Shown one piece after another: positions 6,044 to 56,450 of a stretch of 64,000 nt of DNA. Each line of letters starts with the position of its first letter. The first letter of the stretch is position 1. The DNA comes from a virus: IMG/VR virus record IMGVR_UViG_3300031812_000001, positions 1 through 64,000 of that record. One strand, 5' to 3'. Under the pieces are notes generated by a model, which had not been told where the DNA came from, did no database searches, and worked only from the letters and a program-made list of their open reading frames with translations. The position numbers and the translations under genes are program-made.

Positions 6044-6331
6044 ATGAACCAACGTCCCATAGAACTCCGCCAATACGACGCCAAAGACGTGTACTGGGAA
6101 ATCTCGGACGGGACCATTCAGTCTGTAACCTGGTTCAGTCTCGTAATGTTCCCACAGTCCCCGCCCGGCACACAAAGTCTTGTCATTCAGCCTCTCTCAA
6201 ACACCAGCACCAAGGCTTTCGCCAGAATTTCGGGCGCCTCAAAGGGCTCGTTGCACAAGCTCACTGCGGTGATCTGGCTTACGGACGGGCAGTCTAGGGA
6301 GTGTTCCCGGTTCGTGCTTGGAGTGGATTAA
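6044..6331 (+). CDS. Small beta-rich virion-region protein
   Basis: A protein of 95 residues from the ATG at 6044, chosen because GAAGGA lies 7 bases upstream; the longer in-frame start at 5855 lacks a ribosome site. The sequence is rich in predicted strands, with polar turns (DAKDVYWEISDGTIQSV, SRFVLGVD). Its TAA is followed directly by the ATG of the gp10-like gene. A virion accessory role is likely from position, but the family is unknown. Confidence 0.6.
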   Translation: MNQRPIELRQYDAKDVYWEISDGTIQSVTWFSLVMFPQSPPGTQSLVIQPLSNTSTKAFARISGASKGSLHKLTAVIWLTDGQSRECSRFVLGVD

Positions 6332-8008: not shown

Positions 8009-8520
8009 TGCCATTCAACATCAGGCGCTCGCAACAGATTCAGGTTCCGGTTCGCAGCCCTCTCTTCGACGAAGTTGAAGGCGCAAGCGAGGGATCGAGG
8101 GAAAGATTTGCGCCCTTAAACCGAAACTGGATTCAGTTCTTTACGGCACTTGCGTCGAAAGCGACTTCAGCCGATGAAAACAGATACCGACCAGTGATTG
8201 TTCTGTCCGTCAACGGAACACTCGGGATTGGCTCTGATCTGACCCCCCGGCTTCGCTTTCCATTGGACATCAAGCCGACCGGAGTTCTAGCTGAGGTCAA
8301 GCAGGCCCCGGTTGGGGACTCCATCGTCTTGAAAATCTTATCTAATGAGACACTGTGGATGCAGCTTTCCATTCCGGATGGGCAGACCTCGGTTTCGGCA
8401 GCCCCGCAAGAAGTCGAGGACGCCCGACCCATCCCTGCTGGAAACAACATCCGCTTAGACGTCGTTCAAGTCGGAACCACATTTCCGGGAGCAGACCTTG
8501 TCGTGCTCCTGTACACGTAA
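8008..8520 (+). CDS. Hypothetical virion protein
   Basis: A 170-residue protein starting at the ATG that overlaps the gp10-like stop. It has an N-terminal charged segment with APLNRNWIQFFTAL, typical of small proteins next to podovirus tail hubs. A beta-rich C-terminal half resembles a bacteriophage surface or immunoglobulin-like fold (LRFPLDIKPTGVLAEV, LDVVQVGTTFPG). It lies between the stabiliser and the giant tail protein, so I infer a structural part, perhaps a chaperone or decoration of the tail. Confidence 0.6.
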   Translation: MPFNIRRSQQIQVPVRSPLFDEVEGASEGSRERFAPLNRNWIQFFTALASKATSADENRYRPVIVLSVNGTLGIGSDLTPRLRFPLDIKPTGVLAEVKQAPVGDSIVLKILSNETLWMQLSIPDGQTSVSAAPQEVEDARPIPAGNNIRLDVVQVGTTFPGADLVVLLYT

Positions 8521-8550
8521 TGCGTCTCAGCAAGCGAATCGGCATTGTCA

Positions 8551-31600: not shown

Positions 31601-34600
31601 GCGGAGAAGACATCCGGGACAAGGGAATCCCGGCCATGATTGGGTACCTAAAGAGCCTTGGCCCAATCGAAACGAAAATGACGCTCCGGGGGAGATATCG
31701 CGGCTTTGACCTGTCTGCGGAGCCAAACAGCAGGGTATTCTTCACGATTACGCTGCATAGTGACAGCAATGGACTCAAGGCTGGAGTATATCATCACGAC
31801 AAGTCAAGCGGAAAAGTATACAAGGTAAAATCTAGGCGGCCAGACAGGAAATTCATAACAGTCAATGACATAATTTACGAGCAAGTCGAAGACCCTGAAG
31901 CGAAAGATAAGCTCATGAAAAGCGGCGGGGGAATGACCCTGGAGTCGCATTGGCCTCTGGATTACCCGAAGATTGAATTGAAACGCGGAACCATTAGCGA
32001 GTCTGTGGAGATTGACTACAATAATCCAGGCCGGACCCACAAATCCATTGATGCGGCATTGGAGAGGGTCGCCTCACGCGTCAAGGAACTTGAGGAAGAA
32101 GCCGACAACACCGAAAAAGACATTGTCAAGCTGGAGAGCATGAGGAACAAGCCCTTTGATCGGGCGGAAGAGCTGCAAAGGAAACTCCAGCGGAAGCAGG
32201 AACTAGAGGATCTGTTGGGGATGAATCGAACGGACGCGCAGGCTGCGGCTGCTGTGGAGCAAGCCTCCGAGGACGAGGTCTCGGAAGAAGTGGACGCGGC
32301 GGGCGACCGCGAGCCGGACGAAGCCGACGCGATTCGCGTCATGCAGAAAACGCCTGGCGTGCCTGTGCTTCCCGAGTGGTGCCGGTCCAGGATGATGATG
32401 GTGGAAACCGCCTATAATCACAAGGAGTCAAAGCAGGTTTACATGGTCGGCAGGTGGCTGGCGGCCTATCTAAGCGACAGAAGCACGCGCAGAAATAGGT
32501 GGAAAGTTGTTCACGCCGGGAGCGGAAAAGAAATAGCGTCGTTTGAATACCCCGCCGATGCTTCCTTGTTCGTGAAGACGCTCGAAGAGAAGATTCCCAG
32601 TGAGCTCTCACAGCCAGAGTTAAGCCATGAGGCTGAAGAGAAAATCTACAGGGAACTTAGGGAATACAAGCCCACGCACCTGGACCCAATGTCCATCTTC
32701 CAAAGAACCCTTGAAGATCTCCGGGCCAAGTGGCGCGAGCAGAGGGGGCTCAATGCGCCGCCGCAAGAGAATCGTCTCGGACCGGAGGCCGGCTCTGCGC
32801 CGATGCTTGTGGACCTGGCTCAATGGCTGGCGAACCGGTTTGGGTCGGACGCTCCGAAGGCGAACTATACCGGACTGGGCGCCTTTTCTTACGGCAAGGC
32901 AGTGGCCAAAAACTGGCTTGTGCGCAATCTATCCGTGCTTGAAAAGGTAAGCCCCGAGGCGCACGAGGCGGCGGTCCGGGCCGCCAGCGCAAAAGGTCAG
33001 GCCGTTGCGACCTTGCGCGCCGCCATCCCGCCCATACTGGATGCCCTGAAGGGCTCTGGTCACACATGGGAAGAGTTGCGGCTGGCCCTGATTGAATCTC
33101 GTCTGCGCGGCATCCGGCAGAGGTGGCTGAATCTTGCGGACCAAGCTGAGGAGATGACCGACGAACAGACCAAGCAAGCCTTCGATGATGCATTGGCCGA
33201 CCTGGTGTCGGAGATCAGCGGCCGGGCGGGGTTGCCGAAGGAAGCCATTCAGACCGCCGCGGCTCTAGCTGAGGCTCAAGAGTGGGAGGGACTGAGGTTG
33301 TTCCTGGCCGATCTGTTCCGAGACGCGGCCAGCCGGGTCGCCACAGTCATGGAAGAGGGCTGGTTCGATGAGGTCAGGAACGACCCGAATGTGCGGCGCG
33401 CGCTGCAAATCTACAAGAGCACGGTGGAGGCGGCAATGGCGGAAAGCCATGCCCTTAACGAGGGCATCTTCTCTGATGCGCTCGGGCCGCTTCAAACGTA
33501 TTACCCGTTGGTGCCAATCGGAAAAGAACGGCCATCGGCGCCGCTGCGCCGGGTTCCTTATCACAAGCCGAAGAACCTTGCGAATTACTTCGCCACAGGA
33601 TTGTCTGAGGCTTATGATGTCGGGATGGAATCGCTGCGTGACCGGCTGACGGCCAACATTTTGGCCAATGATCGGGCGCACCTATTGAGGGTCCTTGAAC
33701 AGGAAGGGCTCGTGACTCCGGCTGTCCCCGGTCAGAGGACGTTTATCGGCGAGAACGGTCAGGAATACCTTGGGGTTCGCGTGGAGATCCAGCCCGCAAG
33801 GACCATCATTCGGGAGACCGGGGAGGTGGTAAACATTCCTCCGAGAATGGGCGTCATGCCCGCCCAGCTTTATGGAGAACTAAAGCCGATTTTGGAGTCC
33901 GACAACTGGTCTAAGGCTGATGTCATAGCGCGGATCTTGAAAGCAGTCAATGAGTTGGCCCTGGTTGGACCGTTCGACTTCGTGTTCCACACGGCCAACC
34001 TGATGGGCACCCTGGTCGCCAATACCCCGTTTCTGGAAAAATCCATCCGGGGAGGGGTTCTGTCGCTTCCGGTATTGAAGCGCTTCTATGCCATCGTGAA
34101 ATCCGTCTCGACGGACCCGACGACAGAAGAGGCCGCACGGGACATCATTGAAATGGCAAAAATCGGACTCGTCCCAGACCGATATGCGTCCGTAACCTTC
34201 AGCAAGCGGTTGGCTGAAGAGCTGGGTGCGAAGCAAAGGTTCACCCTCGGTCCCATCCTGTACGGACCGAGGGGACTGGACATCCGCGCCAGGCTATTGA
34301 TGTACCGGTTGGCAAAAGAGATCAATCCGGATGCCGGAAAGCGGGAGATCCGGGAGTTCGTCAATCAACTTGGAAACTATGTTTTCTCGCTCCAGGGTGT
34401 GATCGAAAGGGCGCTGAAATCCACCTTCATCGCTCCGTTCTTCACCGCCGGAAGTTCCATGATCCGCAACGGGATTAACGCATGGCTTGGAACCGGTCCG
34501 ATTCCAAAGAAGGGACCGGCGCTTCGTCTCTACCAGCTTCTTGTCTCCGGTGCGATTGGGACGATTGCCCTGTGGGTGCTGGTTTACAACGCGCTCACGG

Positions 34601-35292
34601 GGAAATGGCCGTGGGAGGACCGCCGGGCGCGCTTGCTTCAGATTCCGGTTGGCGGAGGCGGTGGTCCGATTGACAAATACCGGCACTCGACCTTGGGCCG
34701 CCTGATGTGGGGAGCAGGAAACGAGGTCGGATACCTGAACTTCGGGTTCTTCAATCCCATCGTCACGCGCGGCGCCAGGGCGCTTGGGCTCCAGGAGGCA
34801 TTCAACACTCAAGCGCTGGGCGGAAATTTTGACCAGGCGCTGGAGGGCGCGGTCCGAGGCGCGATCAACACCTTTGCTCATCCGGCCTTAGGGCCGATCC
34901 CGAGGGCCACGTGGACGGCTCTTTCGGGGACCCGTCCGTATCTCACTGGCTACCGGGACATCACCGGCAGCATTTCGCCTCAATTTTACAGGGTGATCCC
35001 GCGTGACACGAAGCCTGGACGCGAAACGTTTGGTCGGATGCTGCTGGCCGGAACGTCCGAGGTAAACCCGTTCTATCAGTCCCTGGCTGAGGCGACCGGG
35101 CTGGTGGGGGCAGATCGTGAGAACCGGGGCAACGCATACTTGCGGATGATCCTAGACCTAACGGCGCCAGGTTTGGTTGGTGAAGCCTCAAAGTGGGAGG
35201 TTCGGGCGGAGACGCTGAGGAGGCAACAGCAACGGTTTTGGGGCCTTCGGTCTGGCCGCGTGCCGGACTTCAGCAAGGCATCTGGGTTCTAG
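16675..35292 (+). CDS. Giant 6205-residue polyvalent virion/ejection protein (transglycosylase, methylase-like, SNF2 helicase, membrane tail)
   Basis: One uninterrupted frame behind AGGAGG. Residues 20-125 are a soluble lytic transglycosylase with catalytic Glu42 in RQESGF and the GIMQLLPGTA and AAYNAG motifs. Then come coiled coils, a hydrophobic region (about 360-510), three SH3-like repeats (about 760, 865, 1100), three large repeated blocks opening with VVRSTP-type sequences (about 1602, 2058, 2358), a KLGGRWIPEEKVWVIP (DUF5710-like) module near 3005 and a winged helix near 3145-3205. A SAM-dependent methylase-like domain follows: VLEPGMGVGNF at 3608-3618 and NVPF at 3675. A SNF2-type helicase comes next (Walker A GSGKT at 4296-4300, DEAD-box-like DEAD at 4475-4478, motif VI region QADGRIERPG near 4830). 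The last ~1000 residues hold helices and a membrane segment (about 5952-5976). This domain mix defines phage polyvalent proteins (P1 DarB is one), injected with DNA to protect it. A separate gene is embedded at 26765-27097. Confidence 0.85.
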   Translation: MSNVPASFIPDPTPDEVKAELQRAAQRYGVDPNLVIRVARQESGFRADLASPKNALGIMQLLPGTARDLGVDPADWRQNIDGGVRYLRQMLNRYQGDLQKALAAYNAGMKNVDRYGGVPPFEETRKYVRAITGTPATFIPDEGSKPTETKDPAPGYREPKSFSLDETFQAPAADGFPEGVESESKPPEPFAGRIPSADEIEAASIRISTLKTVLQSQAEELRKRQQELAKEAERLNSVGATPEQLQDFQRRVMLHDADRMQLEHGLRSLEEQVKDYNAGVSAFQENLKRYESLTVPPGAEKTGLPGVPMQVREPSRGVPAQVKVGRGGAEYGYVPPEDVPKGEFRDYMTKVFTGQVVDEALAPKPTDTTAESIAKGVVKVGLGLVSPQALATMLAAGGLAGALRAAVNSPKVANALSRLPNFTGIMKATEVAAETAVPAAFTALAGKGAVEGALATKSAFEKGETPAATQYTVETIANAILAALGAAGTAKAYLRTTEAYPAGPIPESDAARYRRLKTGVQEGSALMRSGRTMAAKAWLEQARRIAEEDWAKVFSEPIRLQLGQKVVRVEFAGSTQPKTHDMRGRPIFQVVDESTGAILTSGEPSSVAHYLEHRGAKRIAAPKEEDVASKIAELEDELADARAAVESRNWIRTASEQELLKEKDRLERFLAKVREVKSSGQTPKDEATVFSVQQDLELISRRLAGKDVPPDTFSELEVKELEAEINRLRSKPDAAQGGSATPQTPGTEPAQAPGAEPMPEPGKVYLGRAGEVKVVEVKDGHVRFERTIGKTTVIGTMPLDSFQRSFTRLPETGQAPASATQTQQQRPETGTPTSETPQAQSSTAPSEPESTEPPTTPEGRIADHKNPQPGDVFEIPGAGKFHVTNVDSERVYYDFYPHNKNNKVNRGLSLERSVFAGYKSIRPVLFEPTQATTAGAAQSHEGAVRARLPRDLAGATPRYNYGSKSFELQFESDLDRAAYIAAQPKPSKRDEDYVRFVSEATGMSEDEVRAYGRRVRDAIKGLAKGSESGKLLIPDDISGQFLRPTAQTPVGATQTQPAPQEGPAAQSTEPATAVQSQTTEQTGAPSQAESPTVQSALPEPQPGQVYEDDSGLVKIVEVRDGRVVYEDARGSGDRWTRGLEAFLKTFRGPILPAPSGPRASSSAAHTAPVTPAPTVRPTATTEPAQTGQPTETTKTPASFIPDEPQQAAEPQAAETTEQQAGATLVQPPALPSQPESKTTETPIQTEGISTPATFVPDQRIASGAESPSPARGASTNRRIEDLKAKINILEGANARLLAAFADKDHPAIVENNQSISGARKELERLQSEGAAPQEPTRTESPLPELERQIVELESDLRDASARYEQADEYTVAREEALRDMYEISTKLDALRQEASRFNPLLVEQEGAHPHLGLPEIPRGKDSFYDSMMAEVPDLAHAASESYGYEYEKWLKGGKSGSPPKIPSGTEVVQREFAEYPEKWRKAAARRFDNRFLEDARNFLQGLYREGDISELPPELFPEEAASKPQPTPAEQLPAQPEGAGLQEPEPQAAETSEPESRSPAETAAQPSPLAQMTPAAAQPTEASLRPFAGAAESVMAQGPFSRATPPVGTPERQAMVEGVENARKDYEQKVWALNDLYRDLNKTSPRSPLYSEIEDKISRQAMVVDAAKEELEAKRRSVGLALLEDAAEASGSPFHKILGHLHRFGTDLTQDQRNVLLRAAEEEVRRLMAQVNTGGLRYDAELTPEQRERSIRAAAHGVVARAHENPEVAAKPLTPEDLATEIDRQQDEIFAEKVKDQIREIARELREAGIDGADEISRLVDFVLPGEDHRGSLESARARAKELREKHEQREREKAERQKSLIESLKPLSEAPKGTWKDWGGTASAPGRLVTDGVFIFDREAVKTKIPDSVLKRQEGKREVSQEDARKLWTQIVGSAGQELVPLGAVADPERSYSDFAFFATPDGTKLYPAPLKLVKLAFDKIGATSARSALHRYRGQGRTADAIVFYKGDVPLALCLTARTDIYFDPKLAMERLGIPVAPQQASGPNAVDEILSQYSVVRSTPRAGAERREQLEQKLKEARQKYEEALRVEQALTKELRKEGSIEKRKLIEGRLEKAENDTTETKIKFDQLNVESLVAAIEDAAEQHQDRLARLSAFLNLFGELIESKEHQWKAINSELEKEALQYLWSIATDLDPHLTDEQRKQSRQEAARTLVRAVGHDQEAAADPRSALKGRLDRNQRSYIERWVKEQVQQIKESLWEEHGIVLPEIEEFQLNPDVNPLEEFEKIKQRASQKIAELYEAPGTSLFQQPAETRQPEPEPEPEPKPSSPPSGAETEAQGQPVAIPNEIRSILLKYPVVRTTPAPGTPERERLQSQYQKADDTYAGLVNAVAHAKRDLGKYPRGSKRYALVQKRLERAEEKQDESFRKLRELRDLLRQAELEDWALQDDNPLIKVGSHLWLLGELMLPDDASELREWVERQAFRLVRAATDDQYAPHLTPEELERSRENAARELASEIMKASPDIAANPVARANKWFTLSNRDKLLRKATLEIREMLGRLRRDYGFDSQELKDIAEQLRILTIDPIKALEKARSYFDDTIKTLDNQRDAYTLRLKPVPAHESYVSGWPGNLVKPGRFIGDRDRGIDSRALPEEIRAELSEAQEGETPQIDQSEIEVLFERALSEPKTPLASLGIVDGALAYYAEPGGSAAYAIPARIATLAENVMGADEISLFEWAMTPRVVFFRSGKPVAVASAVQDAPRINPRLALDRAMGTKTVQAGWSPRWTETVPEELKKNFGGSAWRYFERLRHQARGLLAFIEAFPQHETEARWTPGADKLRQENQRRIDAAKQQYVSVLADAEKNLGREARELLHDQVMRKSPLMPPGDPEAFDDFWNGLRVNDRIAVPNGVIRVTDVESLSLQAVVPGVGSFGLPSRRVTKIAAHVPGEDGAKFFSSSDLKSYLYPGSGVSGADSIPSQSPQPTPAKSESPSRYALSGDTYRHRQQIKKLGGRWIPEEKVWVIPAENVSKAQRLSRKIEIKPYWGKEQATEGAKAATPEPLPPQAPKEEAENPNHRPERVLAKAKEILSKLTDSQWTGIRHGMFPAEVMDEARAQGYDMPALTKTLMELASKRKRSALEAEEEENERLTILFAIDKRGPIEVSELLGLPEVSGIKHTRVLDHLYRMEFHGLVKEVEDETYVLTDTGRLMISSGSETTEGELPSPSGGFTYEILVNGSWQPSGAVFESKEDAEIAATSELSRLRESEDYRIIELNQGAPIDQEVVAELKRKGTAQRGDVSAKIVVHPSIVGAPEAGEAHWAVELTAGGNRQMLEAEPMTFEQAVESAARALAESAGSTITKGDQSHGETQTETDQPGRRPGSDSGSRPQNVRRGSQGQSQARPAEPDDSKALAGVLSENLSESQAGRAPSQHGAGAGDHDDRAGVQSVEGRTGRGSGAGDSRPGVLASHGQRAVSVDATPTGNIEGDFHLSVEEAVRIETGGAKTKARNNLEAIRIAKQLIEEKRPATPEEQEKLARFVGWGDAELVTGMFTARDSSWDELRGQMDSLLTLEEYEAARLSTLNAHYTRRDLAFEMWQLAKRLGFRAGGTVLEPGMGVGNFFMVMPKDLMPGTRRVGVEMDELTGAIAKALFPNSTVLIEPFQKTSLPDNYFDLVIGNVPFGKIEVVDPAFRREPFITRNIHNYFLAKSLLKLRPGGVLIAITSRHTMDAKTGKWFRAWMSERAELLGAIRLPRETFQRNAGTSVTTDILVLRKRVPGEAPISSETWIEAPEITTEDGQETFSINEYFYRHPEMMMGVMRPGQQYRRGYPELFGVFSIKHLTDLFEKFPENVIPSWSETSRAEAVSEQAYPDARFIKEGQFAIVNGQVVQKDGLHLRPVVESKQKLERIKGMIEIRGAAREVIRTQLYSDDDAELAKAQKELNEVYDRFVKQHGYINDPRNAKAMSEDPDWPLLSALENWDPVNKTATKSDLFSRRTIHKPKPVEKVDTAREALAVSLAETASVNWERMKQLTGKSESELQAELTGLVFKDPLTNNWVTADLYLSGNVRQKLRDAEFAAQRDPYYQVNVDALRKVQPKELNPSEIDAVVGATWIPDEIYSRFLQETFGASTRESEKPVQQVPILGTFVVARDIVVRSRAANELEYGTPYFTGVDLFTLALHKRVPVAYDYIRVPTGSGGYRDIRVRNNDATIAAVEKQMKLIERFERWFWEDPERAKVMSELYNELRNNLRFPEFDGSHLTFPGLNRDWLRNGKPDKHQVDGVWRIIQVGNTLLAHSVGSGKTLTIIMAVMELRRLGMARKAMIIVPNHLVAHWAREFLRAYPSAQLLVPDKEDYSPKNRKKLMARIAVGNFDAIIVPMSSFEKLPVKRETYERFMREQLAEIDAAIEELSRGSQDDAELGTRASSSRKKRKNGNPTVRRLEKRRAQIMARLEKRLRQWEKDDGVTFEELGVDWLFVDEADMYKNLGYISSIRNVAGLPNADANRSNDLLMKARHVMGLHGGRRGLVFATGTPISNTLAEVWTMMRYLMPDYLHQVGFDQFDAWAGTFAQLTAQFEIAPESNRLMSRLRFRSFNNAPELMQMFRLIADVRTKEQLGLPSPPIYQGGPITISVPATEEQKEYIRSLGDRADQIRSGLVEPEEDNMLKLSSDGRKAALDMRLIDPKLPRNPNGKVQRAIENILQIAKEFEQYRATQLVFLDLSIPRADGGDETGAGAEVEAGPEAERFNSVYHDIRNGLIKGGMKPSEVVFIHDFKTKEALNDLYKKMNSGEIRVLIGSRSKMGPGMNVQERLIAVHHLDVPWRPRDLEQADGRIERPGNKLWDEHKIPVRIYRYVTEGTFDAFMWEAVTSKAKPIEMFMKGDTSVRRIEDVSEVVLSYEQAKALASGSPLIRENIILGQEIRKLQLLHSQWMEEIRMAEGQLAQRTAHLKRVREQIPLYREASEEIKNNQTFEWGDHVYSGEDIRDKGIPAMIGYLKSLGPIETKMTLRGRYRGFDLSAEPNSRVFFTITLHSDSNGLKAGVYHHDKSSGKVYKVKSRRPDRKFITVNDIIYEQVEDPEAKDKLMKSGGGMTLESHWPLDYPKIELKRGTISESVEIDYNNPGRTHKSIDAALERVASRVKELEEEADNTEKDIVKLESMRNKPFDRAEELQRKLQRKQELEDLLGMNRTDAQAAAAVEQASEDEVSEEVDAAGDREPDEADAIRVMQKTPGVPVLPEWCRSRMMMVETAYNHKESKQVYMVGRWLAAYLSDRSTRRNRWKVVHAGSGKEIASFEYPADASLFVKTLEEKIPSELSQPELSHEAEEKIYRELREYKPTHLDPMSIFQRTLEDLRAKWREQRGLNAPPQENRLGPEAGSAPMLVDLAQWLANRFGSDAPKANYTGLGAFSYGKAVAKNWLVRNLSVLEKVSPEAHEAAVRAASAKGQAVATLRAAIPPILDALKGSGHTWEELRLALIESRLRGIRQRWLNLADQAEEMTDEQTKQAFDDALADLVSEISGRAGLPKEAIQTAAALAEAQEWEGLRLFLADLFRDAASRVATVMEEGWFDEVRNDPNVRRALQIYKSTVEAAMAESHALNEGIFSDALGPLQTYYPLVPIGKERPSAPLRRVPYHKPKNLANYFATGLSEAYDVGMESLRDRLTANILANDRAHLLRVLEQEGLVTPAVPGQRTFIGENGQEYLGVRVEIQPARTIIRETGEVVNIPPRMGVMPAQLYGELKPILESDNWSKADVIARILKAVNELALVGPFDFVFHTANLMGTLVANTPFLEKSIRGGVLSLPVLKRFYAIVKSVSTDPTTEEAARDIIEMAKIGLVPDRYASVTFSKRLAEELGAKQRFTLGPILYGPRGLDIRARLLMYRLAKEINPDAGKREIREFVNQLGNYVFSLQGVIERALKSTFIAPFFTAGSSMIRNGINAWLGTGPIPKKGPALRLYQLLVSGAIGTIALWVLVYNALTGKWPWEDRRARLLQIPVGGGGGPIDKYRHSTLGRLMWGAGNEVGYLNFGFFNPIVTRGARALGLQEAFNTQALGGNFDQALEGAVRGAINTFAHPALGPIPRATWTALSGTRPYLTGYRDITGSISPQFYRVIPRDTKPGRETFGRMLLAGTSEVNPFYQSLAEATGLVGADRENRGNAYLRMILDLTAPGLVGEASKWEVRAETLRRQQQRFWGLRSGRVPDFSKASGF
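26765..27097 (+). CDS. Small basic protein encoded in another frame inside the giant gene
   Basis: A protein of 110 residues, frame +1 relative to the giant ORF, starting at the ATG at 26765 with AAGGGGGA about 9-11 bases upstream. It reads like a true protein (DLTLEVVRKMSDEEAKANL, then FCPKTYRSLKRAGRLHS, ending REYWLLTDKELFP), and normal codons are used throughout. The PKTYR..K.AG.L and EYWLL..E pattern recalls a family of small phage/mobile-element proteins of unknown role. Over the same bases the giant frame gives low-complexity Gly/Arg/Ser/Gln sequence, as expected for an out-of-frame shadow serving as a linker (residues about 3364-3474). I consider the small gene real. Confidence 0.7.
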   Translation: MAKPKPKQINQDEDPDLTLEVVRKMSDEEAKANLKHVPLSLTILKHWREFCPKTYRSLKRAGRLHSTVLERAIMTIELACSLWKDGLDAVRAREIADREYWLLTDKELFP

Positions 35293-49199: not shown

Positions 49200-49859
49200 T
49201 CAATGGCGGGGCTCTAATGCGCAGCAATGGGCATTTCTCGCGGCGGTCTGGACGCAGGGGTGCGGGGGTGGGGGTGGACATGGCTGCGGAGGCGGGCGGT
49301 TGGTCTTGCCGGCTGAACGGGCACGGTGGCCGGCGGAAGGCCGGGGGTTCTGAATGGACCAGCACCTCAGAGTGAGAATGAATAAGTGTCCTAAAATCAA
49401 CAACTTGCAAGCCAAAGTTAAAGTAATACTTGAAGTGGCTTGCGGCCCATCGCCTTTTCTCTGCCGGACACAGGACTTCGGGGCAGGTGACGCCAGCGAG
49501 CGCGAGTTAACAAGTCCTGTATTTTCAGCAAGATGCAGCCACAACTTCAAGTACCGCATGGGGTTGTTTCCGGCTGGTTCTGGTGTGCCAGCATTATCAG
49601 CAGCTTGCCGTGGAATTGCGATGTGCTACTTTAGGTTTGGCTTGCAATCTACTGATTTTAAAGGGTTTACGTGTTGCAGAATTGTGCTGGTTCTGGCTTG
49701 CCTGTATTATCATCGGCTTGCGGTTGGATTTGTGTGTGTTACTTTAAGTTTGGCTTGTAATTTACTGATTGCAATGGAGTTAGGCGTTGCAGAATTTTGC
49801 GGGCCACGTGGCCTTGCCTCTGGCCATTGGCGTGCTACGATGTCTGAGTTGGAGGGATC
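49200..49859. repeat. 660-bp non-coding region with a long hairpin and three related repeats
   Basis: No convincing gene is present, and the second half is richer in A/T than its surroundings. TACTTGAAGT (49427-49436) pairs perfectly with ACTTCAAGTA (49544-49553). Inside this stem GGCTTGC pairs with GCAAG..GCC, and ACAGGACTT pairs with AAGTCCTGT, making one hairpin of about 125 nt. Two diverged tandem units of about 112 bp follow (from about 49577 and 49689), each with GGTTCTGG, ACTTTARGTTTGGCTTG and GTTGCAGAATT. An inverted copy of ACTTTAAcTTTGGCTTGCAA lies at about 49402-49426. A structured RNA, a small inverted-repeat element, or a decayed mobile element are all possible. Confidence 0.5.
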
Positions 49860-50195
49860 ATGAGATACATCCTCAACAGCGCTGTTGTTACTTCGCCCGG
49901 CGACTACCGCTATACGCTTCTGACCGTCGATGAGGCCAGATCGTGGGTGTGCGATGGGCCGTATTTGTCCACGATGGGGTATCAAGAGACGGCGGAGCTG
50001 GCGCAGGAGATCCTCGGAGTGCCCGTGCCCATGAACCGGGTGATGATCCGGATGGAGCCCGGCGACGAAGCGCTGGTGGTGCGGATTAATCTGCCGCCGG
50101 GCAGCCCGAGGCTGAACCCACGCGACAAGGGCCGGCTGCGGGAGGTGCTGCGTCAGCAGCAGATCGAGATCGGACTACTGAAGAGAACGGCGTAG
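49860..50195 (+). CDS. DUF1874 family protein (AcrIII-1/STIV B116-like), catalytic His replaced by Tyr
   Basis: A 111-residue protein behind GGAGG. MRYILNSAVV, the TVDEAR helix, STMGYQETAELAQEILG, VNR-type MNRVMIRMEPGDEALVVRI and the final helix match DUF1874. Members such as SIRV1 gp29 (AcrIII-1) cut the type III CRISPR signal cyclic tetra-adenylate using a His in an SxGHxxT motif. Here Tyr41 occupies that place (GYQET), one base away from His. The protein may bind but not cut the ligand, or do something else. A second family member with the His is at 56065. Confidence 0.78.
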   Translation: MRYILNSAVVTSPGDYRYTLLTVDEARSWVCDGPYLSTMGYQETAELAQEILGVPVPMNRVMIRMEPGDEALVVRINLPPGSPRLNPRDKGRLREVLRQQQIEIGLLKRTA

Positions 50196-50234
50196 TCTTC
50201 TTGTAATACGCTGATGCTGCGGCATTTTTGTCTC

Positions 50235-50263
50235 TTGACACACAATGGCGGTCATTGTATATT
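50235..50263 (+). promoter_or_regulatory. Dyad-spacer promoter 4
   Basis: TTGACA, spacer CACAATGGCGGTCATTG, TATATT. The dyad ACAATG-GCGGT-CATTGT is perfect in its 6-bp arms. It serves the gene at 50280. Confidence 0.85.
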
Positions 50264-50279
50264 GTGGGGGGAGGAAAAA

Positions 50280-50597
50280 ATGAGAGCCTACACTCCAACC
50301 CGTTACGAGATCGTGGCACAAAAGGACGGCGTCGCGCTTCTGGTCGCATACACCAGCCGCCGGAGCCTGAGAACGCTTGTGCGGGCCTGCCAAGCTGTCG
50401 GACGCGATCTTCTGGCGGCTCTTGGTGGCCTGCCTGAGGATTCGGTGATGACACGGCGCAGCGGGGAGATTGCGCTGGACCTATCTGGTTGGACCATCCG
50501 ATACTCGGGCCGAACACAAAGAGAGGCGGAACTCGAGGGGGAACTCCCTTGGGTTCGGGATCTGGCAAAAAAGCGCTTGACATGCCCTGTCGGATAG
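50280..50597 (+). CDS. Hypothetical accessory protein
   Basis: A protein of 105 residues from the ATG at 50280 with GGGGGGAGG upstream and its own promoter. It has YTSRRSLRTLVRACQAVGRD and EIALDLSGWTIRYSGR; no family known. Its 3' end contains the promoter for the next unit. Confidence 0.55.
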   Translation: MRAYTPTRYEIVAQKDGVALLVAYTSRRSLRTLVRACQAVGRDLLAALGGLPEDSVMTRRSGEIALDLSGWTIRYSGRTQREAELEGELPWVRDLAKKRLTCPVG

Positions 50598-50605
50598 GGC
50601 ATAAT
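50577..50605 (+). promoter_or_regulatory. Dyad-spacer promoter 5
   Basis: TTGACA, spacer TGCCCTGTCGGATAGGG, CATAAT. The dyad ATGCCCT/AGGGCAT spans the spacer and the edge of the -10. It lies within the last codons of the upstream gene. Confidence 0.82.
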
Positions 50606-50623
50606 GAGCGCATGGAGGAAACG

Positions 50624-50674
50624 ATGCTATACAGGACATGCAAGATCGAAAAGTTCATGGAGGTGCGTCCGTGA
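50624..50674 (+). CDS. 16-residue leader peptide candidate
   Basis: GGAGGAA sits 4 bases before an ATG that opens a 16-codon frame (MLYRTCKIEKFMEVRP). Its TGA overlaps the GTG of the next gene (GTGA). The position and coupling suggest a translated leader; it may also be a chance frame. Confidence 0.4.
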   Translation: MLYRTCKIEKFMEVRP

Positions 50675-50904
50675 AGCGAGATCCGGTGATTCACCTCCCC
50701 ATACCCGGAGTGACTCGCGGTCTGGTCGGACTCGCGCGCTGCGGTCGCGTTGTCACGTGGTGGAGCGGGGACCACCAGCAGACGCTCCGCGATTTTGCGC
50801 GAGATTCAGCCCGCGGGGACACCGCGGGCTACTGTCGGGCCTGCATCAGAGCGCTGGTGGCCACTCGCCGCCGGCGCGCCAAGAGCAAGATCGGACGAGG
50901 ATGA
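50671..50904 (+). CDS. Small basic protein (GTG start)
   Basis: A protein of 77 residues. The GTG at 50671 has GGAGG 7 bases upstream. It contains CGRVVTWWSG and YCRACIRALV with a very basic end (RRRRAKSKIGRG). It overlaps the next gene by 4 bases (ATGA). Confidence 0.55.
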   Translation: MKRDPVIHLPIPGVTRGLVGLARCGRVVTWWSGDHQQTLRDFARDSARGDTAGYCRACIRALVATRRRRAKSKIGRG

Positions 50905-51596
50905 GCATGAACCTAGACTTTCAGGAAGTGGTTAAGCGCGCCAAACAAGCCGCAGCCTACAGGGAAGTCATGGAGGATCTCGAATCCATGAGCGGATGGG
51001 ATGATTTTGTCCGCCACCCGAAGGCTCATGATTTGGCCTGCTGGTATGCCAGACGTATCGCCACGGGGCCTGTGCCAGACCTGGAACCGATCATCGCGCG
51101 GGATGCCGCCGCTGCGTGCGAGTACGCCAGAGACATCCTGCGCGCAAGGTTTCCCGAAGCGGAGCCGACCATCGCCGCGCACCCGGATTGGGCGTGCAAC
51201 TACGCCCGAGAAATTATTGGCGGGCTGTGGCCGGAGGCGGAGGAAGCCATCGCCAGCCAACCGGGATCTGCATACTACTATGCCCGCAACCTCATCCGGG
51301 GACGCTGGCCAAACGGTGAACCAGCGGTTTCCCGGAGCCCGCGCTACTCGTACTGCTACGCCAGAGACATTATCCGTGGCCGCTGGCCGGAGGCTGAGCA
51401 TACCATTGCTCAGGACTGCATTTACGCGCTTCAATACGCCCGGGATGTGATCAAAGACCGCTGGCCGGAGGCAGAACCCGTGATTGTTAAAGATCCACTT
51501 CAGGCGTACTTCTATGCTCGTGAGGTCCTGAAATGCAGTCCGCGGGAGGCGCGAAGGGGCTTCCTTCCGAAGCCGCGTCAAGGGGCGCGGCGCTGA
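50901..51596 (+). CDS. WPEAEP-repeat protein, paralogue 1
   Basis: A protein of 231 residues from the ATG at 50901 (a second ATG at 50907 is equally possible). It has an N-terminal conserved block (VVKRAKQAAAYREVMEDLES, MSGWDDFVRHP) and then five 26-residue units, each with RWPEAEP..I...P..A..YAR.(V/I)(I/L). The units are likely paired helices stacking into a solenoid. I know this repeat only as an uncharacterised phage sequence. It is coupled to the upstream gene, whereas paralogues 2 and 3 follow a promoter of their own. Confidence 0.7.
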   Translation: MSMNLDFQEVVKRAKQAAAYREVMEDLESMSGWDDFVRHPKAHDLACWYARRIATGPVPDLEPIIARDAAAACEYARDILRARFPEAEPTIAAHPDWACNYAREIIGGLWPEAEEAIASQPGSAYYYARNLIRGRWPNGEPAVSRSPRYSYCYARDIIRGRWPEAEHTIAQDCIYALQYARDVIKDRWPEAEPVIVKDPLQAYFYAREVLKCSPREARRGFLPKPRQGARR

Positions 51597-51607
51597 TAAG
51601 ATCCTGC

Positions 51608-51636
51608 TTGACACACTATGCCAGATAGTGTATGAT
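51608..51636 (+). promoter_or_regulatory. Dyad-spacer promoter 6 with 5'-terminal hairpin
   Basis: TTGACA, spacer CACTATGCCAGATAGTG, TATGAT. The dyad ACACTAT-GCCAG-ATAGTGT is perfect. Seven bases after the -10 the transcript would begin with the hairpin GCGG-GAAG-CCGC (51644-51655), followed by the ribosome site AGAGGAGGAA. Confidence 0.87.
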
Positions 51637-51669
51637 GCAAGCAGCGGGAAGCCGCAAAGAGGAGGAAAG

Positions 51670-52389
51670 ATGAACTTAAGCTTTCACGATGCAGTTAAGC
51701 GCGCAAGGGACGCCGGAGCCTGCCGGGAGGTGGTCCGAAAGCTGGAAGCCATGACCGGCTGGGACGAATTCGCCCGGCATCCGATGGCCCCCGATTGGGC
51801 CTGCTGGTATGCCATCCGTGTCGTCAGGCAGCCCGTGCCCGACCTGGAGCCGATCATCGCGCGAAACGCCAGAGACGCTTATATGTATGCCGAGGGCATT
51901 CTCCGCCGCAGATTCGAGCCTGGAGAGCCCGCCATTGCAACCAGATCAACCTACGCCTATTACTACGCCCGCGACGTGATCCGCGCCCGCTGGCCGCAAG
52001 GGGAGCCGGCAATTGCCCGGAGCGCGGTGACGGCATCATTGTATGCTATTGACCTGATCGGAGGAAGGTGGCCCCAAGCCGAGACCACCATCATGAAAGA
52101 TCCCGGATCAGCATGTTTGTATGCTCGGCAGGCCATTCGGGGCCGCTGGCCGGAAGCGGAGCCGGTCATCGCCAGCGAGCCTTGGGCTGCTATGATGTAC
52201 GCCCGAGAGGTTCTGCGGTCTAGATGGCCCGAGGCAGAGCCCCTGGTTTCTCGGGAGCCGGAGTCGGCCTTCCACTACGCTCGGGATGTGATCGGCGGCC
52301 GCTGGCCGGAAGCCGAACCGGTCATCCTGTCGGATGACGACTACGCCTGGCGTTATGAGCACGAGGTTTTAGAGAGAGCTGAACCTTAA
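51670..52389 (+). CDS. WPEAEP-repeat protein, paralogue 2
   Basis: A protein of 239 residues from the ATG at 51670 behind GAGGAGGAA. The N-terminal block (FHDAVKRARDAGACREVV, MTGWDEFARHP) is shared with its neighbours, and six 26-residue WP[EQ][AG]E repeats follow. It has the promoter at 51608 and the downstream paralogue probably shares that transcript. Confidence 0.72.
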   Translation: MNLSFHDAVKRARDAGACREVVRKLEAMTGWDEFARHPMAPDWACWYAIRVVRQPVPDLEPIIARNARDAYMYAEGILRRRFEPGEPAIATRSTYAYYYARDVIRARWPQGEPAIARSAVTASLYAIDLIGGRWPQAETTIMKDPGSACLYARQAIRGRWPEAEPVIASEPWAAMMYAREVLRSRWPEAEPLVSREPESAFHYARDVIGGRWPEAEPVILSDDDYAWRYEHEVLERAEP

Positions 52390-52426
52390 CGGTCAGCGGC
52401 AAACCGCAGAGAGAGGAGGAAAGAAC

Positions 52427-53155
52427 ATGGAATTTCACGACGCAATCGCGCGCGCCCGCCAAGCCGGAGCCTGCCGGGAGGCGCTTGAGGCTGTGGAGTC
52501 TATGAGCGGCTGGAATGAATTCGCACTCCATCCAAGGGCCGCAGAATGGGCCATGTGGTATGCGTCCAACGTGATGCAGGACCGTGTCCGGCGGCTGGAA
52601 CCGATCATCGCGCGCCATCCTGAGTACGCCTACCGCTATGCCAGTGAAGTGATCCGCGCCCGCTGGCCTCAGGGGGAGGCGGCAATCGCCAAGGACGCGC
52701 AGTGGGCGTGGCGATACGCCAAGCACGTGATCGGCGGACCGTGGCCTCAGGCGGAACCAGCAATCTCCCAACATCCTGAGTGGGCGTGCTGCTACGCCGT
52801 TGATGTGATCCGCGCTCGCTGGCCCCAAGGGGAACCGGCGATTGCGCGCAACCCATACTACGCTTACTACTACGCACGAAAAATTATCCGCGCCCCCTGG
52901 CCGGAGGCGGAGCCTGTCATGGCCCAACATGCGCAGTGGGCTTACTGCTACGCCCGCGACGTGATCCGCGGGCGGTGGACTCAAGTGGAGGCAGCCATCG
53001 CCAAGCATCCGCATTGGGCGTACTGCTACGCTCGGCACGTGATTGGCGGCCGCTGGCCAGAGGCGGAACCGGTCATTGCCAGAGATGGGTTCGCTGCGCA
53101 CTACTACGACTGCACAGTTCGAGGCGTTTTAGGCCGCAAGGAGGAGGAGAAATGA
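52427..53155 (+). CDS. WPEAEP-repeat protein, paralogue 3
   Basis: A protein of 242 residues with the same N-terminal block (FHDAIARARQAGACREAL, MSGWNEFALHP) and six repeats, several with QHPEWACCYA-type Trp/Cys/Tyr signatures. The leader has the conserved hairpin GCGG-CAAA-CCGC (52400-52411) and AGAGAGGAGGAA but no clear promoter, so the hairpin may mark a processing site. Its stop overlaps the next start. Confidence 0.72.
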   Translation: MEFHDAIARARQAGACREALEAVESMSGWNEFALHPRAAEWAMWYASNVMQDRVRRLEPIIARHPEYAYRYASEVIRARWPQGEAAIAKDAQWAWRYAKHVIGGPWPQAEPAISQHPEWACCYAVDVIRARWPQGEPAIARNPYYAYYYARKIIRAPWPEAEPVMAQHAQWAYCYARDVIRGRWTQVEAAIAKHPHWAYCYARHVIGGRWPEAEPVIARDGFAAHYYDCTVRGVLGRKEEEK

Positions 53156-53496
53156 CTGACGAGTTGATCACTGCATTCGGCCCCGATATCCCCATGCAGG
53201 AAATCGCGGCCGCGCTCTGGTACTACGACCGCGGCGAGATCGAGGACATCATCGAGCTGGCCAACACGGACATACAAGAGGCCTGCCAGCGGCTGATGCA
53301 GGCAAAAAAAGAGGCCGATGAAGCGTTCGGCGAGGGCTGGCAGGTTGTCGAGACCGTCAGCCCAGAAACACCGTGGGCCGTGGAAAAGCGGTTGTGGGAC
53401 ATGGATTTGTCTTGTGGTCGAGACGGCGCGGTGACGTATTGGTTGGTGCCCAAGAGGAGGCTCCGCCGGGTGCAGAGGCTGCTGGACAAGTGTTAG
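53152..53496 (+). CDS. Hypothetical protein coupled to the repeat family
   Basis: A protein of 114 residues from the ATG at 53152, overlapping the upstream stop, with AAGGAGGAGG upstream. It is acidic at first (YYDRGEIEDIIELANTDIQE), with Trp residues in the middle and a basic end (PKRRLRRVQRLLDKC). No family recognised. Confidence 0.55.
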   Translation: MTDELITAFGPDIPMQEIAAALWYYDRGEIEDIIELANTDIQEACQRLMQAKKEADEAFGEGWQVVETVSPETPWAVEKRLWDMDLSCGRDGAVTYWLVPKRRLRRVQRLLDKC

Positions 53497-53531
53497 TCTG
53501 GGCAGATCTGAGCCCGTGTAACCAGAGGTCC

Positions 53532-53560
53532 TTGACACGCGTTGCCAGATATAGTATATT
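53532..53560 (+). promoter_or_regulatory. Dyad-spacer promoter 7 with 5'-terminal hairpin
   Basis: TTGACA, spacer CGCGTTGCCAGATATAG, TATATT. The hairpin GCGGC-AATAG-GCCGC starts about six bases after the -10 (53567 on), then AGAGGAGGAA. Confidence 0.85.
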
Positions 53561-53596
53561 GAGGATGCGGCAATAGGCCGCAGAGGAGGAAGAGAC

Positions 53597-54064
53597 ATGG
53601 AAAACACGATCATTGATCAACTTCGCGCCGTGATAAAGGCGCATCAGGACTCGCTGGCTGCACTCCGCGAGCGCATTGCCGACCTGCTTGATCCAATCCC
53701 CGTGGGGGTGACCCTTTCAGACGCCGACGGCGAGGTCTGCCGGATCGTCCCAGTCTGCACGGGGGCCTCCCAGTGGGCCAATCGCACGTGGGATGTCACC
53801 ATACGCGGAAAGGGCGCGCTGAGCCCACAGGGAAAGCTGATCTGCGAGTGGCTCAAAGACGCGTATTGGGACGGCAATAACTTACACCGCCGGAAGACCG
53901 AGGCTACGTGTAGCTACGAGCGCGGCGAGATCGGCGATGAACTCCAGTGGCTCTCAAGCCGTGAAACGCGCGCTCTGGCTGTGCGACTGCCGGCCGCAAT
54001 TGCCAAATACATGCAGGAGTGCGAGGAAGAGACCAAGGCCAACCACGCGACGCTAGCCCGCTGA
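53597..54064 (+). CDS. Hypothetical accessory protein
   Basis: A 155-residue protein forming a complete promoter-gene-terminator unit. It has an N-terminal helix (LRAVIKAHQDSLAALRERIA), a beta middle (DVTIRGKGALSPQGKLICEW) and an acidic C-terminus. The family is unknown to me. Confidence 0.6.
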   Translation: MENTIIDQLRAVIKAHQDSLAALRERIADLLDPIPVGVTLSDADGEVCRIVPVCTGASQWANRTWDVTIRGKGALSPQGKLICEWLKDAYWDGNNLHRRKTEATCSYERGEIGDELQWLSSRETRALAVRLPAAIAKYMQECEEETKANHATLAR

Positions 54065-54076
54065 TCACCATCCCAC

Positions 54077-54119
54077 GCCCCCGGACCGCCGGCGAGCGGT
54101 CCCGGGGGCTTTGTTTTTT
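54077..54119 (+). terminator. Rho-independent terminator
   Basis: GCCCCCGGACCGC pairs with GCGGTCCCGGGGGC (one bulge), loop CGGCGA, followed by TTTGTTTTTT. It closes the 53597 unit. Confidence 0.92.
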
Positions 54120-54135
54120 CTGGTGCAGCCGAATC

Positions 54136-54164
54136 TTGACAAGCCATGCCGGATATAGTATTAT
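54136..54164 (+). promoter_or_regulatory. Dyad-spacer promoter 8 with 5'-terminal hairpin
   Basis: TTGACA, spacer AGCCATGCCGGATATAG, TATTAT. The hairpin GCGGC-GCAA-GCCGC, with a GNRA-type loop, begins about six bases downstream (54171 on), followed by AGAGAGGAGGAA. Confidence 0.85.
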
Positions 54165-54204
54165 GAGGATGCGGCGCAAGCCGCAGAGAGAGGAGGAAGA
54201 GACG

Positions 54205-54840
54205 ATGGAGCCTATGGACATGATGAAAGAGCTGGCCAGCCGGGTGGCTGCTGGGCAGACCACGATTGACGCGCTTGCCGCTGAGCGCGGCTGGCGGATC
54301 ATCGAGGACTGGAGGGAGGGCCGCTGCGTGCTGCCGGAGCCCCCGCTGTGGTGTGTCGCCGATGAAGGCGGTGTCTGGCCGTGCCCGGATGCCCGGACGC
54401 CGGAAGAGACCGCTCGGGAGTACCTCTACGGGGCAGACTGGATCGAGCCCAGCTCGCGCACCCAGTGGGCGAACGTCACTGTATTCCGCCCGGCGATAGA
54501 CGCCGATGGGTTCCTCTGCCGGGTGGACGACCAGATCGTGAAAGTCAGCATCCACCCGGACGAGCCCCCCTGCGTGGACGACGACGACCATGATTGGCGC
54601 GCGCCACACGAGATCGTAGGCGGCTGCGAGTCCAATCCGGGCGTTTGGGCGAGCGGCGGCGGAGTCATGATCGTCGAGGTCTGCGTCCGCTGCGGGTGCG
54701 GGAAAATCACGGATACATGGGCACAAGACCCGCAGGATGGGACGCAGGGACTTGAGAGCGTGGAGTATCAGCCCGGGCGCTATACGGACAAGCTGAGGAA
54801 GCGGAGGAACCGAAAGGCTCCATCACAGGAGGTAAAGTGA
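54205..54840 (+). CDS. Hypothetical protein with zinc-binding C-terminus
   Basis: A protein of 211 residues from the ATG at 54205. It has an N-terminal HTH-like helix (TIDALAAERGWRIIEDWR), an acidic middle (PCVDDDDHDW) and, near the end, VEVCVRCGCGKITDTWAQDP with closely spaced Cys and the QGLESVEYQPG segment. That C-terminal part is seen in other phage accessory proteins. It is coupled to the next gene (TGATGA). Confidence 0.58.
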   Translation: MEPMDMMKELASRVAAGQTTIDALAAERGWRIIEDWREGRCVLPEPPLWCVADEGGVWPCPDARTPEETAREYLYGADWIEPSSRTQWANVTVFRPAIDADGFLCRVDDQIVKVSIHPDEPPCVDDDDHDWRAPHEIVGGCESNPGVWASGGGVMIVEVCVRCGCGKITDTWAQDPQDGTQGLESVEYQPGRYTDKLRKRRNRKAPSQEVK

Positions 54841-55334
54841 TGATTTTACGAGACCTATTGGCCCTGCGCAGGGCCATCCAGAGCCTGACCGAGTCGACTA
54901 GGGCCACGCTCGTCCTTGGCGGCGTGGCCGCCCACCTCGACGGCCGGCGTAGTCCCTACGTCTCGGGCCGCCGCGTGGAGTACCAATGCGCCGTCGAGGT
55001 CGACGGCGCGAAAAACCTCAGGTATCAACTGGCGTTTTCGGGGCCCACGGCCCGGCCGGAGCCCCTCGAGGGCTACGAGCATGAGTGGCGCGCCCTGGTC
55101 GTCCCGGAGTCCCTGCTCACACCGCTCCGGGATGAGTTCATTCTCTATTTCGGCCGGGCACCGTGGAGCCCCGGCTGCGGACTGGTGCACGTCTGGGTAG
55201 CGGTGCGGGTGCTCGAGGGATGGGAGTCCGATGGCCGCCCGCGGTACAGGTATGCGCCAGCAGACCAGCCGGAGCCTGGCCTCGTACTCCCGCCGCTCTG
55301 CCCGCCGCCGCCGAGCTGGCCAGCAGCTCAGTGA
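54840..55334 (+). CDS. Hypothetical protein
   Basis: A protein of 164 residues from the ATG at 54840, with AGGAGG upstream; a GTG one codon earlier is also possible. It has a helical start (LLALRRAIQSLTESTRA), a beta body with Trp and Tyr, and a Pro-rich tail. No family recognised. A terminator follows. Confidence 0.52.
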   Translation: MILRDLLALRRAIQSLTESTRATLVLGGVAAHLDGRRSPYVSGRRVEYQCAVEVDGAKNLRYQLAFSGPTARPEPLEGYEHEWRALVVPESLLTPLRDEFILYFGRAPWSPGCGLVHVWVAVRVLEGWESDGRPRYRYAPADQPEPGLVLPPLCPPPPSWPAAQ

Positions 55335-55365
55335 GCCCACCCGCCTGATGAGGCCGGGGGGCGGC

Positions 55366-55403
55366 CCCCGGCCCCTTCCCGGGGCCGGGGCTCCGATTTT
55401 TTT
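55366..55403 (+). terminator. Rho-independent terminator
   Basis: A perfect 10-bp stem CCCCGGCCCC / GGGGCCGGGG with loop TTCCC, then CTCCGATTTTTTT. It ends the 54205-55334 unit just before the next promoter. Confidence 0.8.
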
Positions 55404-55429
55404 GCCCATTTTTTTCGCGCGGGGGGGGC

Positions 55430-55458
55430 TTGACATGCCATGCCTGCCATGCTATAAC
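55430..55458 (+). promoter_or_regulatory. Dyad-spacer promoter 9
   Basis: TTGACA, spacer TGCCATGCCTGCCATGC, TATAAC. The dyad is CATG-CCTGC-CATG. It serves the gene at 55498. Confidence 0.85.
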
Positions 55459-55497
55459 TTAGGCATGGCGCACCTGGCGCGGAGAGGAGGTGAGAAA

Positions 55498-55833
55498 ATG
55501 ATGACCCGTGAGCTATTTCTCGAAGGCCTCCGCCGGTGGCAGGAGTCCGCGCCCGAGGAGTCGCTGATAACAGCGGTGCGCTTCAACGAGTGGTCCAATG
55601 ACGGGCCCACAAAGATGGCCCTATACCCCGGCCATCTTGTCGGTTCGCTGAGGACCCGCGGGCGCGAGGTGGAGGTCTCATTTCTGCGTGGCCCCGATGG
55701 GAACCTCATCGATGTCTGCTCTTGGTGCGGCCCCCGGGCTGCCTGCCGGCACGCCGCCGGGCTCGCGGAATGGGCCTTGAAGGTCCAGCTCGCGCCCGGA
55801 GCGTTGGCCAACTGGCCCGTCACAACTTTCTGA
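55498..55833 (+). CDS. SWIM-zinc-finger-like accessory protein
   Basis: A protein of 111 residues from the ATG at 55498, with GAGGAGG upstream. VEVSFLRGPDGNLIDVCSWC then CRHAAGLAEWAL near 70-97 fits the C-x-C..C-x-H spacing of SWIM zinc domains, which bind DNA or proteins. It forms a single-gene unit with two hairpins after it. Function unknown. Confidence 0.58.
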   Translation: MMTRELFLEGLRRWQESAPEESLITAVRFNEWSNDGPTKMALYPGHLVGSLRTRGREVEVSFLRGPDGNLIDVCSWCGPRAACRHAAGLAEWALKVQLAPGALANWPVTTF

Positions 55834-55837
55834 TCCC

Positions 55838-55925
55838 AGCCCCCTGCAATGGGGGCTTCCGGAAGACCTAATTCCCGGCCCCCGGGCCCCGTCGATGGGG
55901 CTCCGGGGGCTTCGACTTTCTTGGC
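55838..55925 (+). terminator. Tandem terminator hairpins
   Basis: First AGCCCCC-TGCAAT-GGGGGCT (55838-55857), then GCCCCCGG.GCCCC-GTCGAT-GGGGC.CCGGGGGC (55878-55910) followed by TTCGACTTTCTT. Confidence 0.7.
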
Positions 55926-55993
55926 GGCAATCCGCCGCCGCGCCAAGCCCAATCCCTGCCGGCATCCCGCAGCGTGAGCCCCAAAAAAGCAAA

Positions 55994-56024
55994 AGCCCCC
56001 TGCCCCGAGAAGGGGCAGGGGGCT
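55994..56024 (-). terminator. Terminator for the minus-strand gene
   Basis: A perfect 13-bp stem AGCCCCCTGCCCC / GGGGCAGGGGGCT with loop GAGAA. On the minus strand it is followed by TTTTGCTTTTTT. A second C7/G8 hairpin lies at about 56040-56058. Confidence 0.85.
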
Positions 56025-56064
56025 ATGGTCTCTCGGAAGCCCCCCCTTTTAGGGGGGGGCGGGC

Positions 56065-56415
56065 CTACCCGTCCCAGTCCTCCGGGTAGGGTGCATACAG
56101 CCTTACGAGAAAGTACCGGATCTCGGCCCCGGGAGGCAGGGCGGTTGCCCCCTCAGGGAGCCGCGGGCCAGTGTACTGCGCCACAACCAGCGAGTCCCCC
56201 GGCTCGAGCGAGATCGAGGTCCGGTTCACCTCGACCTCCAGACCTAACTGCGAGGCGATCAACCGGGCAGTGTCCGCGTGGCCGACCGCGGACACAAAGC
56301 CCTCGGATAGAAGGGCCTTGGCGTTCTGCGGATGAACCGGGAAAACACTGAAGTTGTGCACGAAGCCCCCTTGCGGGAGCATGTTGAGCGAAAAGGCGTT
56401 TGTAAGGTATCTCAT
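56065..56415 (-). CDS. AcrIII-1-like ring nuclease candidate (DUF1874), His present
   Basis: A 116-residue protein, the only well-supported minus-strand gene. MRYLTNAFSLNML, SAVGHADTARLIASQLG, VNRTSISLEPGDSLVVAQY and a final AEIRYFLVRLY match DUF1874/AcrIII-1 closely. His46 in the SxGHxxT motif corresponds to the catalytic His of SIRV1 gp29, which cleaves cyclic tetra-adenylate and so disarms type III CRISPR. It has its own promoter and terminator, and its mRNA appears leaderless. The anti-CRISPR role is inferred from the family. Confidence 0.83.
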   Translation of the reverse strand: MRYLTNAFSLNMLPQGGFVHNFSVFPVHPQNAKALLSEGFVSAVGHADTARLIASQLGLEVEVNRTSISLEPGDSLVVAQYTGPRLPEGATALPPGAEIRYFLVRLYAPYPEDWDG

Positions 56416-56421
56416 GCCCTA

Positions 56422-56450
56422 ATCGTACACTGATAGCTAGCGCATGTCAA
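56422..56450 (-). promoter_or_regulatory. Dyad-spacer promoter 10 (minus strand), leaderless output
   Basis: On the minus strand: TTGACA, spacer TGCGCTAGCTATCAGTG, TACGAT, then six bases to the ATG. There is no room for a ribosome site, so the DUF1874 mRNA should be leaderless, as at 35760. Confidence 0.78.

Follow-up and report, generated by a model that had tools for sequence, protein, structure and literature searches.

Proteins of the DUF1874 family, among them Crn2 and AcrIII-1, are generally regarded as ring nucleases acting on cyclic tetra-adenylate (cA4). In AcrIII-1 the general acid is likely to be H47 (PMC12830947), and the Marinitoga Csx1-Crn2 protein no longer degrades cA4 when its His495 is changed to alanine (PMC7293037). 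Here we describe two DUF1874 genes in a 64,000-nucleotide stretch of viral DNA (the window; positions 1 to 64,000 of the 66,473-base IMG/VR record IMGVR_UViG_3300031812_000001), one encoding a protein with the catalytic histidine (H-type) and the other a protein with tyrosine in its place (Y-type). An earlier note on this DNA had placed the two open reading frames at 49860-50195 (forward strand) and 56065-56415 (reverse strand), and both products indeed lie above the curated PF08960 cut-off of 26 bits: the 111-residue Y-type protein scores 55.9 bits (E 4.9e-15) and the 116-residue H-type protein 48.4 bits (E 1.1e-12). No further DUF1874 gene was found in the record. We hypothesize, with a probability of roughly 0.55, that this phage holds two proteins that share the AcrIII-1/Crn2 fold but differ in their chemistry, a His-dependent ring nuclease and a handler of cyclic nucleotides that does not use histidine.

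One fold, with and without the catalytic histidine

The two proteins share 35% identity across 65 residues, and His46 of the 56065 protein (within SAVGHADT; codon at 56278-56280, reverse strand) occupies the same alignment column as Tyr41 of the 49860 protein (within STMGYQET; codon TAT at 49980-49982, forward strand), as the earlier note had proposed. The 56065 protein aligns with SIRV1 gp29 at NAFSLNM, SAVGHADT, the NR motif, Q80, R85 and E88, so that the full AcrIII-1 site is present, with His46, Arg85 and Glu88 in the columns of H47, R85 and E88. It also matches phrog_5063 (E 7.5e-18). Its closest named relative, at 42.6% identity, is Tsac_2833 of Thermoanaerobacterium phage THSA-485A, which is reportedly among the proteins assayed in the 2020 AcrIII-1 paper. 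Relatives from 36 viral contigs have the histidine in every sequence read, a count biased by one search pattern that itself included the His, and R85 and E88 are present in nearly all of them. An AlphaFold2 model of the protein matches the DUF1874 structure 6scf with a Z score of 14.7. Taken together, sequence, structure model and phylogeny support the earlier assignment well, and the 56065 protein is very probably an AcrIII-1-type cA4 ring nuclease.

The 49860 protein departs from this site in more than one residue. Tyr41 sits on His495 of Marinitoga Csx1-Crn2 (8y7g) in an ungapped alignment in which residues 29-86 correspond to residues 483-540 of the chain. The active-site Glu88 (SIRV1 numbering), whose loss the earlier note overlooked, is also missing and is replaced by Asn; the loop that carries R85 and E88 in SIRV1 is rebuilt, and the C-terminal part differs. 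The earlier view that the core is retained understated the change, which includes the gain of an invariant lysine. The fold itself is kept, because the model of the 49860 protein (pLDDT 88) matches AFV3-109 (2j6b, Z 16.1), Csx1-Crn2 (8y7g, Z 15.5) and 6scf (Z 15.2); both models were built as monomers, and both agree with the family structures with which the earlier note had suggested comparing them. As a separate observation, a search of BFVD with the Y-type model found the DUF1874 fold in several proteins of Erwinia phage vB_EamM_Kwan and in one of phage phiEaH2, at 9-13% identity, possibly a distant expansion of paralogues.

A conserved tyrosine clade

Relatives were gathered by searching viral and genome contigs for sequence patterns. 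The GY motif was not part of these patterns except in one scan, from which 4 of the 30 Y-type members first came. These 30 sequences, the window protein among them, derive from phages and from metagenome-assembled genomes (MAGs) labelled Nitrososphaerota, Methanoperedens, Desulfobacterota, Caldisericota, Chloroflexota, Myxococcota, Bacillota and others. The catalytic-His position is Tyr in all 30. The position of E88 is Glu in none and Asp in 21, and T44, R60, R75, K90, W29, E103 and G105 are invariant. Nearly all remaining DUF1874 proteins that we compared retain both His and Glu88; two relatives that these scans returned, from Tepidimonas and Tepidicella, are H-type.

In a maximum-likelihood tree the Tyr group lies among YddF/Crn2-like H-type proteins on one branch (support 100/99), together with L077, a long-branch Bacteroidetes sequence with Asn at the catalytic-His position. 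When L077 and the columns of the H/Y position, of E88 and of the loop were removed, the 30 Y-type sequences formed one clade, again with support of 100/99. The two window genes fall in well separated clades. Y-type genes are under purifying selection, because dN is far below dS in four close pairs (dN 0.03-0.12, dS 0.49-1.36, dN/dS about 0.04-0.09). These observations strengthen the earlier suggestion that the Tyr41 protein acts differently, and we take the Tyr-type proteins, on the alignments and trees, to be a conserved branch, without the histidine, of an anti-CRISPR fold that is already known.

No description of a Tyr-type DUF1874 protein was found in the literature searched, which did not extend to the original 2020 AcrIII-1 Nature paper. 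Nor did we see a Y-type protein in annotated phage and plasmid collections, where the best phage matches read were all H-type and not every match was read. The window phage is the sole record in which we saw both types together: the pairing is absent from 16 other virus records with a Y-type gene and from 34 with an H-type gene, many of these records being fragmentary. Among the records compared, a single one (L013) has two H-type copies; in this 7.5-kb virus record two different H-type genes lie about 2.4 kb apart, at 477-839 and from 2912 onward.

Genomic context of Y-type genes

The neighbours of Y-type genes are mostly genes of phages and mobile elements, such as terminases, integrases and primases, and an all-against-all BLAST of about 600 neighbouring open reading frames revealed no conserved partner gene. 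There is one clear placement in a type III setting. On the contig L068 (DYFC01000059.1) a gene for a CARF-sigma54-AAA-HTH (helix-turn-helix) regulator comes only a few bases after the Y-type gene; next are genes for a Card1-like CARF nuclease and for a third CARF protein, and the same contig encodes Cas1, Cas2, Cas6 and a CARF-HEPN Csx1/Csm6 protein. By its gene content, this locus appears to be a type III CRISPR accessory locus. On a second contig, L069, a CRISPR array and a gene for a Card1-like protein are found a few kilobases from the Y-type gene, and the nearest H-type sequences have Cas10 at a distance of about 6 kb on their own contigs. The cases are few, but they seem to link the Y-type branch with signalling by cyclic oligoadenylates.

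We place little weight on the frequency of Cas10, which is encoded in 8 of 13 genomes with a Y-type gene against 44 of 148 genomes of one phylum (E up to 1e-15), a comparison in which phyla are unmatched and bins uncertain. One neighbour set gave a padloc match named 'Csx1, found elsewhere', which was not traced to a locus and which phmmer with the CARF proteins of L068 and L069 missed.

A different neighbourhood is seen on two MAG contigs, L064 and L069, in which the Y-type gene has a JAB-like gene on one side and a very large one on the other (L064: 7-789 and 1275-6050; L069: 9530-15943 on the forward strand, with further features of the locus at 7712-8992, 5594-6712 and 18518-19210). The large gene of L069 encodes a fused beta/beta' RNA polymerase of 2,138 residues, in which a single chain combines Rpb2 and Rpb1 domains and has a GADFDGD motif, and nearby are genes for ThiF, a second JAB protein, an E2-like fragment and a sigma54-type AAA protein. 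Judged by these genes, the two contigs possibly carry an undescribed ubiquitin-like/RNA polymerase locus.

What the two proteins may do

In the scheme that we favour, the 56065 protein would bind cA4, presumably as a dimer, and His46 would act as the general acid that cuts it, which would switch type III CRISPR effectors off. In the 49860 protein the fold and a basic, polar pocket are kept and the His/Glu acid site is gone. Its most likely role is to bind a cyclic oligoadenylate, or another cyclic nucleotide related to it, and to neutralise or buffer that ligand without cleavage of the His type. Read from the sequences, Y-type proteins are best seen as binders or sponges, or else as Tyr-based ring nucleases, with no His catalysis in either case. 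Binding without cutting is the simplest reading: SIRV1 gp29 retains its binding of cA4, at about 25 nM, in the H47A variant (PMC7213978), and loss of the histidine therefore need not abolish binding. The handling of cyclic nucleotides is also favoured by the pocket residues Thr44, Arg60, Arg75 and Lys90, which the Y-type proteins keep, and by the L068 member, with the CARF-sigma54-AAA, Card1-like, Csx1/Csm6, Cas1, Cas2 and Cas6 genes on its contig.

Several points weigh on the other side. Most Y-type genes have no CRISPR neighbour, and the L068 bin, assigned to Nitrospira japonica, is doubtful at 34% G+C. At the pocket positions held by Ser11 and Asn13 in SIRV1, the Y-type proteins have Val and Thr, as do most H-type YddF-like proteins. 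It has also been argued that type III systems produce messenger in such large amounts that sponging would be a poor strategy (PMC13148439), and a Tyr-based nuclease or a scarcer ligand is therefore quite possible.

The first of these is the strongest competitor, and we regard it as a serious minority view. Here the Y-type proteins would be active ring nucleases in which Tyr41, with Lys90 and Arg75, replaces the histidine, and their substrate might be a cyclic oligonucleotide different from cA4. A tyrosine that is invariant rather than drifting would fit such a role, as would the newly invariant Lys90, Arg75 and Glu103; the L068 member sits where a CRISPR accessory locus would hold a Crn2 off-switch, and at high messenger levels degradation is more sensible than sponging (PMC13148439). 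His and Glu of the acid site have, however, been lost together, the sole mechanism studied in this fold relies on His, and the literature searched contains no Tyr precedent in this fold.

Less probable again is a Y-type protein that no longer handles nucleotides and whose fold serves as a protein- or DNA-binding regulator. Several H-type relatives carry the record label 'DNA binding protein', ordinary phage genes surround most members, and the L064 and L069 members lie between a JAB-like and a large gene, in L069 that of the fused RNA polymerase, all of which would suit a regulator; we nevertheless consider this unlikely, given that Thr, Arg and Arg/Lys of the pocket are invariant and that CARF effectors adjoin one member and lie near another. 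Finally, the idea that the 49860 gene is a copy of the 56065 gene, either recently duplicated or in decay, as the loss of catalytic His and Glu and the presence of both genes in the same phage might suggest, has next to no chance of being correct, and we reject both the pseudogene and the recent duplicate: the frame is intact, a ribosome-binding site (GGAGGG, 49851-49856, forward strand) is present, the clades are well separated, and Tyr is fixed in 30 of 30 sequences from bacteria, archaea and viruses that are under purifying selection.

Beyond the preferred reading of a histidine ring nuclease alongside a cyclic-nucleotide handler, we tentatively suggest, at somewhat less than even odds, that DUF1874 proteins of the Tyr type form a new class of cyclic-nucleotide handlers that work without His, either Tyr-based ring nucleases or binders of a different immune signal, used by phages and by type III CRISPR loci and paired here with a classical AcrIII-1 so as to cover two signals. 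The Tyr clade also points to an uncharacterised route for disarming or tuning cyclic-nucleotide immunity. We stress that a match to PF08960/DUF1874 by itself can lead to a protein being wrongly called a ring nuclease, because a widespread Tyr clade without the active-site Glu exists. The occurrence of both types in one phage and of a Y-type gene in what appears to be a type III accessory locus makes the question directly testable.

The phage and the regulatory sequences around the two genes

The record has the look of a temperate, P22-like tailed phage. Its portal protein is 35-38% identical to P22-like portals, without a close relative, and it further encodes an integrase, a single-stranded DNA-binding protein (SSB), a MazG-like protein, a VRR-nuclease and one tRNA, tRNA-Met. 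The annotated phage collection contained no close relative or DNA match, and the host was not identified thereby. By far the longest phage gene is a single open frame of 6,205 amino acids (about 18.6 kb) at 16675-35292 on the forward strand.

The H-type gene is on the strand opposite to its neighbours. A promoter-like TTGACA-N17-TACGAT (56422..56450, reverse strand; 10 of 12 consensus matches) ends 6 nt ahead of its ATG, and its stop is followed by a hairpin resembling an intrinsic terminator (55994..56024, reverse strand; 13 pairs and a T-rich tail). To judge from these signals, the gene forms a self-contained promoter-gene-terminator cassette with the layout of a phage 'moron'.

The stretch from 48 to 58.5 kb holds nine sigma-70-like sites, where 2.6 would be expected. 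Three near-consensus promoter-like sites, of the type TTGACA-N17-TATA (50235-50263, 50577-50605 and 51608-51636, forward strand), have perfect dyads of 6-7 bp in their 17-nt spacers; the dyad sequences differ, and it is possible that they are operator sites of different repressors. The earlier note had assigned both DUF1874 genes to this dyad-promoter region. This was only partly right: the dyad promoters serve neighbouring small cassettes, one per cassette; the 56065 gene has its own promoter, and the 49860 gene lies upstream of the dyads, without a consensus promoter and with just a weak TTGCCT/TACGAT pair recognised by eye. Three consecutive genes at 50604-53155 (forward strand) encode repeats of the type YARDVIRGRWPEAEPVIARD; the two of them that were scanned had no convincing Pfam match.

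Upstream of the Y-type gene are two tandem 113-bp copies, 78% identical (49573..49798, forward strand), within a region (49392-49798) that also holds inverted partners of 34-35 nt at a distance of 200-300 nt. The tandem copies have no coding match and none in Rfam, and an Rfam search of the region returned the tRNA as its sole match.

Comparison with known systems

With AcrIII-1 (SIRV1 gp29 and Tsac_2833 of THSA-485A) the 56065 protein shares family, fold, motif set and phage setting, whereas in the 49860 protein Tyr replaces the catalytic His, Glu88 is missing, the loop is rebuilt and the C-terminal part differs. The Y-type clade is nested among Crn2/YddF-like proteins (Csx1-Crn2, AFV3-109, YddF and the Tepidimonas and Tepidicella proteins) and shares with them LN(S/T)...T, the NR motif and the E..G.L..R end; His and Glu88 are both present in 12 of 12 YddF-like sequences, however, and both absent in 30 of 30 Y-type ones. 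Tad1, Tad2, Acb2 and Acb4 are encoded by phages and bind the cyclic nucleotides of immune signalling without cleaving them (PMC12043709, PMC11722364). They belong to other protein families and were absent from the comparison of the Y-type model with folds in the PDB, which could miss a distant relation; they would be functional analogues of the proposed Y-type binder. Csx15 has a CARF-type fold, forms filaments and has not been seen in phages (PMC13148439), and we claim no homology to the Y-type proteins. This ring-nuclease family includes members that act on cA4 by sequestration only (PMC13148439), and it thus offers a precedent for sponging of the kind that the Y-type proteins may perform.

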